A DNA stretch of 35,345 nucleotides from Cyanothece sp. BG0011 (GTDB lineage: Bacteria; Cyanobacteriota; Cyanobacteriia; Cyanobacteriales; Microcystaceae): contig NZ_PRLH01000101.1 in assembly GCF_003013815.1 (NCBI RefSeq), forward strand, positions 1 through 35,345, in the 5' to 3' direction. The first letter of the stretch is position 1, and each line of letters begins with the position of its first letter. A program made the translations under genes and the position numbers. Shown piece after piece: positions 2,503 to 35,345 of this stretch. The notes under the pieces were generated by a model that searched no databases, was not told the DNA's origin, and worked only from the letters and a program-made list of their open reading frames with translations.

Positions 2503-3885
2503 ATGTTACCTGAGTCAACCCTAAAACAACTCAAAAGCGCGTTACCAGACGGTCAATTACCCCCCAGTTACGGGGTTTACTTCAAAAATACCCTGGTTGC
2601 CCTTTGTCACGCCTTAGAAGACCATATACTAAACAGTACCCCCGATGATCCCCAACAACATCCTTTAGTGTTGGTCACGTTTCAACAGGGAAAATGGTAT
2701 TTACAAGAAGCCGATCGCTATTATGATATTGCCCAACGTTCTCGCCATATTGCGATCGCAGCGGTAGCCGAAAGTGGGTTTGACAGCCATAAAACAGGAA
2801 AATTAGACAATGTTTCTTTAGTCCATCTGAATCAAGAAGATCCCCTCATAGAAGAGTGGAATTTAATCATTTTAGCCCCAGGATACGCAGCCATGGTACT
2901 CTGTCGGGAACTGTCCCCCGAAGACTACCGGGCCGATACCCAACCCCAAACGGACACCGAACGCAAATTTTACGGACTTTGGACCTTTGATCCCCTTCCG
3001 GTTCAAGAATCAGCTAAGATTTTAATCGAAGGAATGCGGTCCTATAACCCAGAATTAGCTGATCAACTCAGCCAAATGCAAGCTAACATTGTTGAAACCC
3101 CCAGAGATGTCAACATCGATCTCACCGGAGTGGTTTCTCGTATCGTCACTTACCTGCAAACCTCTCAGCAACAGTTAGTGACCATTAACCGTCAAACCAG
3201 AGAACTGGTAGACTTAGAAGGGCAGGCCCGAAAATTAAACCGAAACTTGGCCGCTAGTAAGTTACAGGCATTCCTCCGTATGGCCCAACGAGTGGATGAA
3301 AAAGACACAGATAACCCCCTCGCTTCCTTGCAAGTATCAGCCCTCTCAGAAACCATCGGACAGTTATTGGACTTACCTACATTGAAACTGAGACGGTTAA
3401 GGTTAGCAGGGGCATTGTATCGCATTGGACTAGCAGAAGCCCCTAAAGAAGTGTTTACCCATACCCCCGAAACATTGAATGATTCGAGTTACGCTTTTTG
3501 GAGAGATCGGGCAATGTTGGGATCTCAGTTATTAGCCACTATGCCCGAATTAAAAGCCATTAAAGACATTGTAGGACACCAATTGGAACATTGGGACGGA
3601 AGCGGTAAACCCGACGGCTTAAAAGGGGAAGAAAACGGCATCGAAGCAAGGATATTAGGGTTAGTTGCCTACTTCCAGGAGTTAACCCAACCCAGAGGCG
3701 ATCGCCCTGCTTTGAGTTTAGGGGAAGCCTTAGAAAAATGCGAATCTTACAAAGAAACTTGGTTTGATCCAACGTTAGTTGATACTCTCGCTAACATTAT
3801 TCGATTAGTGGAAATGGGCTTAATGGCCTTACCCGATCGCCCCAGTCAACTGCCGGCTATTTGGTTAGAAGAAGCCACCCGATAA
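2503..3885 (+). CDS. DICT-domain protein with degenerate HD-GYP domain
   Basis: This 460-residue protein has an N-terminal DICT sensory domain at about residues 1-185, a domain found in cyanobacterial cyclases and two-component proteins. A helical linker (ITYLQTSQQQLVTINRQ) follows at about residues 210-265. The C-terminal domain resembles HD-GYP, with GHQLEHWDGSGKPDGLKGE near residue 361. In an active HD-GYP phosphodiesterase one expects an HD pair and GYP. Here the HD position reads LYRIGLAE and GYP reads GKP, so c-di-GMP hydrolysis is doubtful. It is likely a signalling adaptor or ligand sensor. No clear ribosome binding site precedes the ATG. Confidence 0.8.
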   Translation: MLPESTLKQLKSALPDGQLPPSYGVYFKNTLVALCHALEDHILNSTPDDPQQHPLVLVTFQQGKWYLQEADRYYDIAQRSRHIAIAAVAESGFDSHKTGKLDNVSLVHLNQEDPLIEEWNLIILAPGYAAMVLCRELSPEDYRADTQPQTDTERKFYGLWTFDPLPVQESAKILIEGMRSYNPELADQLSQMQANIVETPRDVNIDLTGVVSRIVTYLQTSQQQLVTINRQTRELVDLEGQARKLNRNLAASKLQAFLRMAQRVDEKDTDNPLASLQVSALSETIGQLLDLPTLKLRRLRLAGALYRIGLAEAPKEVFTHTPETLNDSSYAFWRDRAMLGSQLLATMPELKAIKDIVGHQLEHWDGSGKPDGLKGEENGIEARILGLVAYFQELTQPRGDRPALSLGEALEKCESYKETWFDPTLVDTLANIIRLVEMGLMALPDRPSQLPAIWLEEATR

Positions 3886-30880: not shown

Positions 30881-32494
30881 TTAACTATCAACTAAAATGT
30901 TAGGTAAACCGACATTTTTAGGGTTGACAAAGTTTCCCTTAAAATCAATGGTTTTTTCTTCATTGGTCGCCGCATCTTTAATGGTTCTAGCTTCAGCTAA
31001 AGCCCGACGAAGTTCGGCCTTTTCTAAGTTATCTTTTACCCCACCCAATAAGTAAATTAATAAACGACTAGCTAATTTTTTACCTGATACTTGAATGCGT
31101 TTTTTCATCGGATCATAAAGTACACCATACCAAATAGATTGGGAGGTATCCATATAACTAAAACCGCCAATTTCATCAAAATAAATAAGTTTTTTTATAA
31201 GACTTTCTAGCTCAAAATTTTTACTAAATACTAAAAATCCTAAGGCTTGGGCTAAGGCAATTTGTCCCACAGGACGAAATAAAAAATTTCCTTCTCCTCC
31301 TCCTTTTTCATGGTTAAAACGTCTTAATTCATAGGTTTTAACCCCATGTTCTAATTGTCGATAACTCGGTAAATTTGCTAAGCCATCGAACAATTCAGAT
31401 AAAGAATTTAAGCCTTCTTCTATTTCTTCATCGTCGGGACGTAAAGAGATCAAATTCTTTTTGTCCTTACTTTTCCAATGAGGAAATTGATAGTTTAAAT
31501 AGCCCTCTGTCATATCTTGTAGTGCTTGTAATGTGGTTAAAACAGTGGATTTATTAGCAATAGTTGCACTATCCCAATTGACCCGAGAATTCCAGTCTTT
31601 TTCCTCTCGATCTTTTAACAGTGGATGGGTGATAGCGAGTCGTCTAGAAACAATAGCAAAGCCATCATCTTCGTTCAATAAAACTAACTGTCCCTTGCTT
31701 AAAGAAATGGCCATACGGTTAACATGAACGAATACGGATCTTACCCGTCTTCTTGCTTCTTCATAGGTTTCTCCTTTGATGACTGCGGGGATAATTTCAA
31801 TGCCGATCTTTTCTTTGGCTAAACTTTGTAAAGCAATGGGATCGAGCTCATATTCTTCTATTAATTCATCAAGGGTAATAGGGGTTCCTGTTGCTTTTTT
31901 TACCTTATTATAAACCTCTAATTTTCCTGTTTTTAATAACTCCATTAACCCTTGTATCCCCATTAGTCGATGTTGTCCATCTAGGGCAAAAATTGAATAG
32001 TTTTCTCCAATATTTAACAAACCGACACTATCATTCTTATCTAAAGATAGAAACTCATCTACACTGACTTTTGCACGGTTATTTATATCCCATTCTCCTG
32101 CATCAGGATTATTGACCCAATTTTGACTAATAACCACTAAAATAGGGGGGAATTTATGATTATTTAGAACCGCTAAATATTGGGCTAAATGTGCTTGTCT
32201 TGACCAATCTAAAGGGCGTTGTTGTAATTCTTCTACGGTTTCAGAATCACGGATAATATTGTTGCTTTTGGGGTCATATTTACGGCGAAATAAGGGTAAT
32301 TGTAAGGCAAAATGCACCCGACTGGCTAACCATTCTAAAGAGACTGATCCTAGATAACTTTGCGTAGTTCCCATCTGGGTTTTCTGCACAAAAAGCTGAT
32401 CTTGACGGGATAAATACCGTTCTAATAATAAAGCAAGTGCCTGTTTTTCTTCGCTTTCTTGTTGTTGCAGTTGTTTCGTAATATCTTGATCCAT
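30881..32494 (-). CDS. DGQHR-domain protein, DndB-like (537 residues)
   Basis: This is a large member of the DndB/DGQHR family. The motif FALDGQHRLMGIQGL lies near residue 170. N-terminal SYLGSVSLEWLASRVHFALQ and PPILVVISQNWV, and the later VFVHVNRMAISLSKGQLVLL (usual form: F.D.NR.A...S), match the family core. Residues 350-537 are an added C-terminal part not found in small DndB. DndB-type proteins act with or regulate the Dnd phosphorothioation genes. This gene is transcribed away from dndB, with 353 nt between them. Whether it belongs to the sulfur modification pathway or to a linked defence component is not determined by sequence. Confidence 0.75.
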   Translation of the reverse strand: MDQDITKQLQQQESEEKQALALLLERYLSRQDQLFVQKTQMGTTQSYLGSVSLEWLASRVHFALQLPLFRRKYDPKSNNIIRDSETVEELQQRPLDWSRQAHLAQYLAVLNNHKFPPILVVISQNWVNNPDAGEWDINNRAKVSVDEFLSLDKNDSVGLLNIGENYSIFALDGQHRLMGIQGLMELLKTGKLEVYNKVKKATGTPITLDELIEEYELDPIALQSLAKEKIGIEIIPAVIKGETYEEARRRVRSVFVHVNRMAISLSKGQLVLLNEDDGFAIVSRRLAITHPLLKDREEKDWNSRVNWDSATIANKSTVLTTLQALQDMTEGYLNYQFPHWKSKDKKNLISLRPDDEEIEEGLNSLSELFDGLANLPSYRQLEHGVKTYELRRFNHEKGGGEGNFLFRPVGQIALAQALGFLVFSKNFELESLIKKLIYFDEIGGFSYMDTSQSIWYGVLYDPMKKRIQVSGKKLASRLLIYLLGGVKDNLEKAELRRALAEARTIKDAATNEEKTIDFKGNFVNPKNVGLPNILVDS

Positions 32495-32521
32495 ATTAAT
32501 TATTTAACTATGTTCTTTTCG

Positions 32522-32547
32522 GTAGGGTGGGGAGTGCATCACCTTAC
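32522..32547 (+). repeat. GTAGGGTGGG-type short hairpin
   Basis: GTAGGGTG at 32522-32529 pairs with CACCTTAC at 32540-32547 (one G-U pair). It is a short member of the hairpin family also at 5516, 5668 and 16132. It lies 27 nt upstream of the 537-residue DGQHR gene. Confidence 0.6.
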
Positions 32548-32611
32548 AAGTTATACCTTAATCTTCAAACCAATTAATAGGGAATAGGGAACAGGCAACA
32601 GGTTTTTAGTA

Positions 32612-32737
32612 TCATAAAGGTTTGAAAGATAACTCCGATGGGGTTAGAGTGGTTAAGGGTATCGCTTAACCCAGTAACCAACGGGCAAAGTCTTCTGGGA
32701 AGCTTTCGACTAAGAATTTACAAATATTATCATACAT
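32612..32737 (-). pseudogene. N-terminal remnant of an Rpn/DUF4351-type nuclease-transposase protein
   Basis: On the minus strand from ATG 32735-32737 the frame reads MYDNICKFLVESFPEDF, then ARWLLG, followed by TAA at 32666-32668. It continues in the same frame with AIPLTTLTPSELSFKPL and stops again at 32612-32614. This is the characteristic start of cyanobacterial Rpn-family (PD-(D/E)XK) recombination-promoting nuclease/putative transposase proteins, which usually go on L.PTELSLEPIRAD. Only about 41 codons remain of a roughly 300-residue protein. The family call is by recall of that N-terminus. Confidence 0.55.
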
Positions 32738-32760
32738 TTTTCATTTTAAAACCCTTATGT

Positions 32761-32829
32761 AGTTTTATAAAACCCTAACAAAGTTTTTAAAAACATTATA
32801 CAAGTTTTAGATTATAATAGCCTTGTTTT
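32761..32829 (+). promoter_or_regulatory. 21-bp-periodic GTTTT array over a putative dndB promoter
   Basis: GTTTT occurs at 32762, 32783, 32804 and 32825, exactly 21 bp apart (two helical turns). The first two are 12-nt perfect palindromes: GTTTTATAAAAC (32762-32773) and GTTTTTAAAAAC (32783-32794). A related CATTTTAAAAC begins at 32742. TATAAT lies at 32813-32818, inside the array and 29 bp before the dndB ATG. This is the layout expected of a repressor array covering a promoter. Function is inferred. Confidence 0.55.
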
Positions 32830-32847
32830 AAATTTGGATAAGGCCAG

Positions 32848-33765
32848 ATGATGGGGTTTGAATATGTATTACCAGTGATTCGGGGGATACAAGGAGAACG
32901 GGAGTATTATGTTTCTATGTGTCCCTTGGGAATATTGCCGAAGTTGTTTCCTTTACCGGATGAGAGAATAACGCCGTTTCAACGGAGTCAGCGACGGTTA
33001 AATAAGAGCAGATCGAAGAAAATTTGTCAATATATTTTAGAAAATCGTTACAATTATGTCTTTTCTGCTATTACTGCCAGTATTGACGCGGATACGACGT
33101 TTGAAGCAGTGGGAGAGGTGGCCGAAATGCGAAAATTGGGCCGTTTGCGTATTCCCATGGAGGGGAGTTTAAGGATACATGACGGGTTACATCGCCGGGT
33201 TGCCTTAGAAATGGCCTTACGCGCTAACCCTCAGTTAAAATATGAAACCATACCCGTCATTTTATATATTGATACGGGTTTGCCACAGTGTCAACAACTG
33301 TTTATTGATCTTAACCGTTGGGGGGTTAAGTTACCTCTTAGTTTAACTATTCTCTATGATAATCGAAATGCGATCGCTTTGATGGTTCAAAAGGTAGCTA
33401 AAACCCTTAAGTTTTTTAATGATTATACTTATTTAGATGGGGATAGGATACCGAAAACATCAGATAAGTTATTGACGTTAACTCAATTATATCAAGCAAC
33501 AATTGAGTTATTACGGGATGTTGCTTTAGAAGATGATACACAAAACATTGACTTTGTTTTGTCTTATTGGCAAGAAGTGATTCATTATTTAGAAGCTAAT
33601 AAAAATGATGAAAATTTTGACAAGTTATTGTTACGGTTAGGGAAGTTTGGGAGATTATTATTAACTAATTATCCTAATAGTTGGAAAGAAAAATTACAAG
33701 GTTTGAATGTTTCAGAACTTTTGCTGAGTGGGCAAACTTTTTTAGATGATGATGTTCTCAAATAA
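32848..33765 (+). CDS. dndB: DNA sulfur modification protein DndB
   Basis: This 305-residue protein has the canonical DndB arrangement: YVLPVIRGIQGEREYYVSMC at the start, ILENRYNYVFSAITASID, GRLRIPMEG, the signature IHDGLHRRVALEMAL near residue 111, and QQLFIDLNRWGVKLPLSLTI. In studied systems DndB represses the dnd operon and tunes phosphorothioation. The signature here is DGLHR rather than DGQHR, a change in the family's defining motif. Two ATG codons open the frame (MMGFEY). It is convergent with the 401-residue DGQHR gene (29 nt between the stop codons), which separates it from dndC. Confidence 0.88.
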   Translation: MMGFEYVLPVIRGIQGEREYYVSMCPLGILPKLFPLPDERITPFQRSQRRLNKSRSKKICQYILENRYNYVFSAITASIDADTTFEAVGEVAEMRKLGRLRIPMEGSLRIHDGLHRRVALEMALRANPQLKYETIPVILYIDTGLPQCQQLFIDLNRWGVKLPLSLTILYDNRNAIALMVQKVAKTLKFFNDYTYLDGDRIPKTSDKLLTLTQLYQATIELLRDVALEDDTQNIDFVLSYWQEVIHYLEANKNDENFDKLLLRLGKFGRLLLTNYPNSWKEKLQGLNVSELLLSGQTFLDDDVLK

Positions 33766-33794
33766 GTCTTTATTTTGCCCACTTTATCCTGTTA

Positions 33795-35000
33795 TTAATA
33801 CAACTGAAATTGAGGATTAGGCGGTGACATCCAACCTAAATGAATTTTTACTTTATCCACTGCACTTTTAACACTTCCCATAGTTGCAGAAATTTTATAA
33901 GCTTTCGTCGGATCTTTAGGATTAGTCTCAACTCTAATAATATTACCATGCCAAATTTGACTACTGCATAACCAATCTAGTTGAGCTAATTGAGATACTT
34001 TTGAGCTATCAAAATGATTGTTTTCTTGATCATAAGTGAAATAAAGTAAACGCCCTAATACCTCTAAGCCAACGCTACGCCCTAATATACAAGTTTCTTT
34101 AAATTTTCTTACTTCCTCAACTGTTAAGTCTTTTGCTTCTGTTTCAAAAATATGTTTTGTTTGTTGGCATTCTGAGAAGAATTGATTCAAACCAACAACT
34201 AAAGCATTAGAAGATGTTTCAACATTCCAGTTTTCTAGCTCAGCTTTTGTATCATTTGCAAAAGCACAACTAACCATTTTTGCAAGATAATTTCGAGTAT
34301 AAAGTAGTTTATGTTTAGTTGAAGGAGATTTTTTAATTGTTTCAGTTTTATCTTTAAACATTGGTACGTTTTCCTGTACCGTTTTCATAATACCGATATA
34401 TCCTTCAAATTCTCCAAAAGATAATAAGAGTGAAGGATCTAATGTCCTACTTTGTGCCATATCTCGGAAGTCCATTTGACATTGCTTAAAATCTTTTTCC
34501 AAAACTAAAGTAATCGGAAAATCATTATCTCCAATTAATTCACCATTGGTACTTTCGATCAGTTCATGAATTGCCCTTTTTCGGTGTTGCCCATCAGTGA
34601 TATCTAATTTTACACCACGGGGAATTACAACTAGACAAAGTTCTCTAGCTAACTCAATCAATTCAATTCTATCAGGAGAAATATTAGCAGTAAGGGTTCC
34701 AAGAATCCAGGGTTTATTTTTTTGAATACGCTTGACAATATATTGTTTGACTTCTTCTGCATGGCCTTGCACTTCGGGACGATTTTTACCCGAATCAGGA
34801 TCATTATTTTCAGAATGTTTTGCTTGTAATAAAGTGGGTAGATCGTGAGCAGGTACATTAATCTGGATCATTGTTCGTTTTCCCTGACGAAACCGTAAAC
34901 CCAGATAACATTTTTTGCGATAAAACTTAGATAAATATGATTCTAAAGCCTGATTGAGAGAGTGACTAAGTTCTTTATGGTCGGAAATAGAGTCAAACAT
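33795..35000 (-). CDS. DGQHR-domain protein, DndB-like (401 residues)
   Basis: This is the third DGQHR protein of the locus. LDITDGQHRKRAIHELIEST lies near residue 138 with an intact DGQHR, and FRDMAQSRTLDPSLLLSFGE gives the following family segment. The N-terminus (KKCYLGLRFRQGKRTMIQI, NVPAHDLPTLLQ) and the long C-terminal half differ from the 305-residue dndB, so it is a distinct paralogue rather than a duplicate. It is divergent from dndC with 97 nt between them, well placed to control dndC. AT content and codon style match its neighbours. Role in phosphorothioation is inferred from location. Confidence 0.8.
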   Translation of the reverse strand: MFDSISDHKELSHSLNQALESYLSKFYRKKCYLGLRFRQGKRTMIQINVPAHDLPTLLQAKHSENNDPDSGKNRPEVQGHAEEVKQYIVKRIQKNKPWILGTLTANISPDRIELIELARELCLVVIPRGVKLDITDGQHRKRAIHELIESTNGELIGDNDFPITLVLEKDFKQCQMDFRDMAQSRTLDPSLLLSFGEFEGYIGIMKTVQENVPMFKDKTETIKKSPSTKHKLLYTRNYLAKMVSCAFANDTKAELENWNVETSSNALVVGLNQFFSECQQTKHIFETEAKDLTVEEVRKFKETCILGRSVGLEVLGRLLYFTYDQENNHFDSSKVSQLAQLDWLCSSQIWHGNIIRVETNPKDPTKAYKISATMGSVKSAVDKVKIHLGWMSPPNPQFQLY

Positions 35001-35001
35001 A

Positions 35002-35049
35002 TATGATAGTAATTTAGATTGTCGGGAAAATACTTACCCTTCTATCATA
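35002..35049 (+). promoter_or_regulatory. inverted repeat between the 401-residue DGQHR gene and dndC
   Basis: TATGATAG at 35002-35009 and CTATCATA at 35042-35049 are exact complements 32 nt apart in the 97-nt divergent region. The left arm begins 2 nt upstream of the DGQHR start codon. It could be an operator for either or both genes. Confidence 0.4.
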
Positions 35050-35097
35050 ATCACAGACTAAACTCTTAGGAATCCAGTAAACTACTGACTTTTGGGT

Positions 35098-35345
35098 ATG
35101 ACAAATATACAGACAACCCTCTTTCCCCCTCGCACTGTCACGGAATTAGTTGAAGCTATACAAAAGTTAACTACAGAAATTCAAGAGTTATATTGTGCTG
35201 ATGACATTCCCTTTGTCATTGGATACTCTGGGGGAAAAGATAGTACAGCAGTTTTACAGTTAGTTTGGAATGCGATCGCAGCCTTACCCGTTAAAAAACG
35301 TCATAAGAAAATTCATGTTATTACCACGGATACCCTAGTTGAAAA
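35098..35345 (+). CDS. dndC: DndC, phosphorothioation PP-loop protein (partial, 5' end)
   Basis: The first 82 codons of a gene that runs out of the window. FVIGYSGGKDSTAVLQLVWN contains the PP-loop SGGKDST near residue 45 that binds ATP, and IHVITTDTLVEN follows as in DndC, a PAPS-reductase-like, iron-sulfur-containing protein that works with DndA/IscS, DndD and DndE to put sulfur into the DNA backbone. The N-terminus (RTVTELVEAIQKLTTEIQEL) also fits DndC. dndD and dndE would be expected to the right, outside the window. No strong ribosome binding site is visible. Confidence 0.9.
   Translation, partial: MTNIQTTLFPPRTVTELVEAIQKLTTEIQELYCADDIPFVIGYSGGKDSTAVLQLVWNAIAALPVKKRHKKIHVITTDTLVE

Follow-up and report, generated by a model that had tools for sequence, protein, structure and literature searches.

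The DNA analyzed here, hereafter the window, is a stretch of 35,345 nucleotides from Cyanothece sp. BG0011 and makes up an entire contig (NZ_PRLH01000101.1; C180 in our numbering) of a 5.6-Mb cyanobacterial assembly. Its right end carries the beginning of a dnd (DNA phosphorothioation) locus in which three different genes of the DGQHR type, on alternating strands, precede dndC, inside which the contig ends. As working names, we used LARGE for the product of 537 amino acids (aa), DndB (or SMALL) for that of 305 aa, and MID for that of 401 aa. The features are as follows.

30881 to 32494, minus strand: LARGE, a 537-aa DGQHR protein with the motifs DGQHRLMG and FVHVN, the most constant DGQHR neighbor of dndC in the order Cyanobacteriales.
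32495 to 32847: divergent intergenic region between LARGE and dndB (353 bp).
32762 to 32773: palindrome GTTTTATAAAAC, site 1 of a candidate operator.
32783 to 32794: palindrome GTTTTTAAAAAC, site 2 of the candidate operator, 21 bp from site 1.
32848 to 33765, plus strand: SMALL, a 305-aa member of the DndB clade with the motif DGLHR and a C terminus trimmed relative to its relatives.
33795 to 35000, minus strand: MID, a 401-aa DGQHR protein of a separate clade, with FRDMAQ where DndB has FxDLN and LARGE has FVHVN.
35001 to 35091: divergent region between MID and dndC, without a conserved dyad.
35092 to 35345, plus strand: dndC, first 84 codons, cut by the contig end; the start is probably the ATG at 35098.

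An earlier note on this sequence had described three DGQHR-type genes of 537, 305, and 401 residues on strands −, +, and −, the third lying between dndB and dndC. The open reading frames (ORFs) and their coordinates agree with both statements, and profile searches, which the note had proposed for all three proteins, placed the products inside the DGQHR families. LARGE, DndB, and MID scored 50.6, 261.3, and 278.3 bits, respectively, against Pfam PF14072 (DndB; cutoff, 29.1) and 166.3, 179.5, and 68.0 bits against NCBIfam TIGR03187 (DGQHR; cutoff, 58.85), and they were the only PF14072 matches in the 5.6-Mb assembly at an E value of 0.001. These generic models already cover all three proteins, so that the families are known to the databases. 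The DndB equivalog TIGR03233 (≥328 bits) was missed by all of them, with 271.7 bits for the 305-aa protein, 60.5 for the 401-aa protein, and 18 for the 537-aa protein; DndB models score LARGE far below their cutoff. Its full-length counterpart at locus L048 reached 445.5 bits, and we infer that trimming keeps the 305-aa protein below the threshold. The DpdB model NF041060 (≥300 bits) was not reached either (MID, 12 bits at an E value of 0.07; LARGE and DndB, no match at 0.1). In a Pfam scan at an E value of 0.1, PF14072 was the sole match in each protein, with nothing matching DUF262, HNH, or another kind of nuclease domain.

The note had also assigned a DGQHR-type motif to each protein and long extra C-terminal regions to the two larger ones, and each statement held in part. 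The motif is present in LARGE and MID, where it is invariant in alignments of 30 and 22 rows, respectively, whereas the 305-aa protein reads DGLHR, the middle residue being variable across a 21-row DndB alignment. FVHVN is kept in LARGE, and the corresponding place in MID reads FRDMAQ. LARGE is truly longer, owing to insertions within the core (residues 86 to 335 match positions 35 to 216 of PF14072) and to a C-terminal part, whereas MID has the normal length of a DndB protein and aligned to DndB over nearly its whole length with hhalign (E value, 5.8e-15). LARGE matched DndB around the DGQHR core (E value, 1.5e-4; probability, 51%) and MID more weakly (E value, 5.5e-4; probability, 30%). DndB proteins of the fetched relatives measure 339 to 396 aa, except for an 82-aa remnant in L072 and those of L010, on a Crocosphaera metagenome-assembled contig that is the nearest named relative found, and G129 (locus L056), a genome of the same family as that of the window; like the 305-aa protein, the latter two lack the C-terminal part present in most relatives.

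In a tree of 72 proteins, each group fell on one side of a branch, with support of 100% for LARGE, 100% for MID, and 97% for DndB (200 bootstraps; rows comprised 12 of 37 LARGE, 28 DndB, and 25 MID proteins, and long branches that meet were flagged). The 305-aa protein grouped with full-length DndB, and LARGE and MID lay outside the DndB clade. Judging from this tree, the three seem to be long-separated families, and recent duplication was rejected as their origin. The ratio of nonsynonymous to synonymous substitution rates (dN/dS) was 0.088 for LARGE, 0.273 for DndB, and 0.132 for MID (0.143 to 0.215 in four neighboring genes), values well below 1 that indicate purifying selection on all three. 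A sequence search for relatives of solved structure gave none for MID or DndB at an E value of 1 and two matches for LARGE (E values of 0.14 and 0.95). Viral contigs held no confirmed relative of LARGE or MID, phages no relative of LARGE (the only one of the three searched there), and 72,556 plasmid records just distant DGQHR/DndB proteins (5 records for LARGE and 4 for MID); a phage or plasmid origin was rejected on these searches.

Across 148 genomes of the order, LARGE was found in 89, dndC in 120, MID in 37, and LARGE together with dndC in 85. Strictly defined DndB was present in at least 32 (27 matches of >380 bits plus five lower ones picked by hand, in G000, G129, G057, G034, and G141, among the matches listed). 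Completeness is 71, 75, 82, and 90% in the four genomes that have LARGE but no dndC. Whenever LARGE and dndC shared a contig, LARGE lay upstream and antiparallel (75 of 75). The same orientation was found for MID in 33 of 33 same-contig pairs, with a median gap of 179 bp, while DndB was upstream of and parallel to dndC in 31 of 31 pairs, among the matches listed. With the same scope, the 75 LARGE-dndC contigs divide into 34 with neither strict DndB nor MID, 15 with DndB only, 14 with MID only, and 12 with both. Among the 34, at least G101 and G107 have another DndB-like gene at the locus. In a draw of 292 genomes across the phylum, all 52 LARGE genomes came from this order. For these counts, one fragment each was kept of the broken LARGE genes of G016, G081, and G127 (four fragment rows were dropped), and a second dndC-like match in G137 (132.7 bits) was left out; the MID list includes seven places at 358 to 377 bits, which may be a separate subtype, and a partial match in G099. 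In G016, LARGE lies in three separate pieces (C1:683962-693141) and is probably broken.

The arrangement of the window recurs in relatives. Out of 98 loci taken (the window, L010, and fetched sets of 40, 40, and 16 of 20), 92 had dndC, and all three DGQHR-type genes stood together in 13 of the 92. The linkage to dnd genes that the note had proposed to verify by genome comparison is thus seen in other genomes, and MID as a one-off insertion was rejected. Among 40 loci fetched around PF14072 matches in the same order, picked mostly for clustered DndB matches and not at random, nine (L044 to L052) read LARGE(−), DndB(+), MID(−), dndC(+), and dndD(+), as did L053; dndE comes next in L044 to L052. 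The window and L010 match this order as far as they reach, L010 having one extra ORF and also ending inside dndC. In G129, DndB, MID, dndC, and dndD stand in a row. On the far side of LARGE, most of L044 to L053 carry a CxC/PbeC-type ATPase, and several carry a PbeA-type helicase and dnd_assoc_4. Further long DGQHR-like proteins (578 to 669 aa) occupy the slot between dndB and dndC at L062:10619-12628, L063:10978, and L077:7551-9287; two of them were scanned and gave 25.7 and 23.9 bits to PF14072, below the cutoff, and one adjoins an HNH protein.

The second recurring element is a palindrome with the consensus AGTTTTTAAAAACT in the LARGE/dndB region (63 distinct best sites from 97 loci), often repeated before LARGE at multiples of ca. 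21 bp, equal to two turns of the helix. The dyad GTTTT-N2-AAAAC occurred in 17 of 25 LARGE/DndB regions and TTTTTAAAAA in 23 of 25, compared with at most 2 in 30 shuffles. The exact 12-mer GTTTTTAAAAAC has 22 occurrences in dnd loci totaling 815,864 bases. Of these, 21 lie at a LARGE start or ahead of it (several of the loci being close kin), and the other sits where dndB begins in G129, a genome that has LARGE in another place. Allowing one mismatch gave 53 matches, including 11 one-mismatch matches within LARGE coding DNA and a few at other positions. Spacing was analyzed in 52 of 57 upstream regions, with near-copies removed: sites with ≤1 mismatch were separated by 20 to 21, 41 to 42, or 63 to 65 bp, with 16 of 17 pairs at 21n±1 (34 of 44 with ≤2 mismatches).

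We then turned to 40 held-out LARGE loci, which are new genomes but not independent lineages, since most come from family f33 and other families represented before. A site with ≤1 mismatch lay upstream in 36 of 40 (shuffle mean, 2.0; maximum, 5), compared with a single locus of the 40 downstream and none inside the gene, and an exact site lay upstream in 21 of 40 (shuffles, 0.03). Two held-out loci with dndC on another contig (L150 and L151) had two-mismatch sites only. Among 20 dnd loci lacking LARGE, drawn from 35 such genomes, none had an exact site and one had a one-mismatch site. No site is present in L054 and L075, two loci that carry DndB but lack LARGE. Linked LARGE loci had a ≤1-mismatch site in 21 of 25 cases with DndB and in 18 of 29 without intact DndB (L072, with its remnant, was counted among the latter, and three LARGE genes away from dndC were left out). 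In the window, single sites with ≤1 mismatch occur at about chance frequency, and the pair at 32762-32773 and 32783-32794 is unique in its own 5.6-Mb genome.

In L010, an ORF with DUF4351 (2768-3130) lies between the palindromes and LARGE. Comparison of window positions 32579-32723 with this stretch gave no good blastn match, the flanks alone matching, and a DUF4351 remnant at this place in the window was not confirmed by tblastn. In this clade, LARGE may therefore have come to lie farther from the palindromes.

Together, these patterns lead us to read the locus as the control half of a cyanobacterial dnd island with three separate members of the DGQHR (ParB/sulfiredoxin-like) family, in which LARGE and/or DndB would repress the divergent promoter and so set the level of phosphorothioation; we give this reading a probability of about 0.5. 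LARGE and/or DndB would bind the palindrome array as dimers dependent on nucleoside triphosphates (NTPs) and, once bound, would repress the divergent LARGE/dndB promoter, while in genomes where dndB and MID are absent the LARGE/dndC promoter would be repressed instead. Phosphorothioation would be held low in this way and then released on a nucleotide or DNA signal. The precedent is the DndB protein of Salmonella, described in the available text of PMC4507180 as a homodimer that represses dndBCDE via two TACGN10CGTA palindromes; in that of PMC12704722, ParB-fold proteins bind NTPs, and a DndB-like protein among them binds ATP and GTP. Either protein could be the binder: persistence of the sites in loci without DndB favors LARGE, but in G129 the site stays at dndB. 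Activation instead of repression is also possible, since an inverted repeat near dndB acts positively in Streptomyces lividans (PMC6186775, in the portion available). More weakly, MID might be a second control or a read-out at the dndC side, where it would occupy the place given in other genomes to a phosphorothioate-binding HNH nuclease; it faces dndC but no conserved site is found there, so that a regulatory role for MID is suggested by gene order alone. Of the two joint functions offered by the earlier note, the regulatory relay is supported by the divergent orientation of neighboring genes and by the conserved palindromes upstream of LARGE. The added defense arm may still apply: LARGE and MID match no Pfam nuclease domain, but MID and an HNH nuclease exclude each other upstream of dndC, as described below.

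Several observations weigh against the control reading. Because many of the genomes are close kin, their counts cannot be treated as independent, and among the three proteins DndB is under the weakest constraint. The palindromes of the window are ca. 54 bp before dndB but ca. 268 bp from LARGE, and in G129 the site stays at dndB while LARGE, on another contig, has none, which suggests that DndB may be the binder. Among the 37 main loci, 2 have no site and 5 a two-mismatch site only, and among 20 LARGE-alone loci these numbers are 8 (3 of them away from dndC) and 3. Eleven one-mismatch matches to GTTTTTAAAAAC fall inside LARGE coding DNA, and at two mismatches the site is unspecific, occurring upstream in 39 of the 40 held-out loci but also downstream in 20 and inside the gene in 21. 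Spacing in the held-out set was at 21n±1 in just 8 of 12 pairs (25 of 57 with two mismatches), and the four misfits measure 66 to 67 bp. The MID/dndC regions have no shared dyad, and the top word common to them contains the dndC start. Finally, the Salmonella operator TACGN10CGTA was tried and rejected, with 0 of 25 LARGE/DndB, 0 of 20 MID/dndC, and 0 of 5 LARGE/dndC regions containing it.

A rather unlikely alternative is that LARGE and/or MID are phosphorothioate-sensing NTPase effectors, comparable to the ParB-like N-terminal halves of DndI or SspE, and that in cyanobacteria without DndFGH they act together with a nuclease encoded separately. It draws on what stands upstream of dndC in other genomes. 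In many of them (L055, L058 to L061, L064, L065, L074, and L076, among others), a nuclease with a sulfur-binding domain and an HNH domain lies between dndB or LARGE and dndC; one member matched SBDHga1 (8h0l) at an E value of 6e-21, scored 124 bits against NF045808 (below the cutoff of 180), and contains HNH_2. Nucleases of this kind in dnd loci have been reported (PMC10853773, in the text available). Across the 92 dndC loci, MID was present in 28, the HNH nuclease in 22, both in none, and neither in 42 (Fisher, 1.1e-4), so that MID may take an effector's place, although this exclusion may reflect lineage as much as function. The invariance of DGQHR in LARGE and MID points the same way, as does a PbeA-type helicase match in 126 of the 148 genomes. 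Of the restriction genes that the earlier note had thought worth seeking, dndFGH was looked for through one family: TIGR03238 (dnd_assoc_3), which we take to be a DndFGH-associated family, exceeded its cutoff in 0 of 148 genomes (one subthreshold match, 21.2 bits), as would suit effectors of another kind. In DndI, the R87A change in the DGQQR motif abolished ATPase activity and lowered phage resistance (PMC11662687, in the portion available). On the other hand, the Pfam scan found no nuclease-type domain in either protein, MID has FRDMAQ in place of FxxxN, and a conserved palindrome at the LARGE promoter is what would be expected of an autoregulator.

Also unlikely is that the palindromes belong to another regulator or to promoter architecture and that LARGE and MID are enzymes limiting the modification machinery directly, for instance, through NTP use, and are only carried along. 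In support, 11 of the 29 linked LARGE loci without intact DndB have no ≤1-mismatch site, and DndB has been argued to be a possible NTPase or nuclease (PMC10853773, same text). However, every exact site within the fetched dnd loci falls at the start of LARGE or dndB, and the uniqueness of the pair in its own genome is as expected of a local autoregulator.

That the three genes are a neutral pile-up of paralogs in a decaying island is very unlikely, for although dndC is cut by the contig end and no remainder of it was recovered from the assembly, dndD and dndE occupy another contig, and dndB is both trimmed and the least constrained, dN/dS is well below 1 for all three genes, their arrangement is shared by many Cyanobacteriales genomes, and the start of dndC aligns to the last base of the window with L010 and G129, which gives no sign of dndC decay.

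The rest of the island was sought in the same assembly. The dndC fragment of the window scored 98 bits in the profile search, and no piece of the remainder was found in the 5.6 Mb, just a weak match of 24.6 bits. The dndD (679 bits) and dndE (PF08870, 151.6 bits) genes lie near the end of contig C217, dndD being 1.4 kb from it, with a PemK/MazF-type toxin gene in between (L011:15541-15882). A join of C180 and C217 by overlap gained no support: the contigs have no exact end overlap, the genome contains the final 150 bases of the window a single time, and the final 1,500 align with L010 and G129 and not with the C217 piece. A second island on C213 (10000-22000; L013) has a PbeA-like helicase (387 bits), a DndD-like ATPase (44.9 bits), and a 159-aa protein.

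Returning to the control reading, a bolder version of it, which we regard as doubtful, would make LARGE and not DndB the core phosphorothioation switch of the Cyanobacteriales, autoregulating through a helically phased array, with MID taking the place of the phosphorothioate-binding HNH endonuclease while lacking a nuclease. If true, the "solitary" dnd systems of cyanobacteria would own a reader layer. It has been proposed that dnd arose in cyanobacteria, whose clusters were reported to lack dndFGH and have been called incomplete and disordered (PMC8569181, in the part available). The recurring gene order, a constant LARGE missed by DndB models, and a testable candidate operator suggest a fixed control layer in these clusters, which would make the long-standing question of partial phosphorothioation, and of its role where DndFGH is lacking, accessible to direct experiment. 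In the open literature, no paper had LARGE, MID, or the palindrome as its topic by title or the start of the abstract, among the matches listed. What is new is the order-wide constancy of these families, their separation into clades, and the palindrome.

In order to put the locus into perspective, we compared it with known systems. DpdB, which we take to be part of the 7-deazaguanine Dpd system, has the DGQHR family in common with it, but only MID gave a match to the DpdB model, at the 12 bits mentioned above. With DndI and SspE (DUF262 plus HNH), it shares a ParB-like NTPase motif within a phosphorothioation system, DGQQR in DndI versus DGQHR here; unlike them, LARGE and MID have no HNH/DUF1524 or DUF262 Pfam match. 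The PbeABCD/CxC-ATPase module with dnd_assoc_4 adjoins LARGE in many relatives (the order in L048 is PbeA, PbeC, Uma2, dnd_assoc_4, LARGE, DndB, MID, DndC, DndD, and DndE), whereas here it lies outside the window, and the PbeA-like genes of this genome are on C217 and C213. Unlike the Salmonella enterica DndB locus, the present one has two further families alongside DndB and a palindrome, AGTTTTTAAAAACT, at multiples of ca. 21 bp in place of TACGN10CGTA; it resembles that locus in the DndB family itself (TIGR03233/PF14072), the DG-HR motif, the linkage to dndC, dndD, and dndE, and the presence of palindromes at the promoter.

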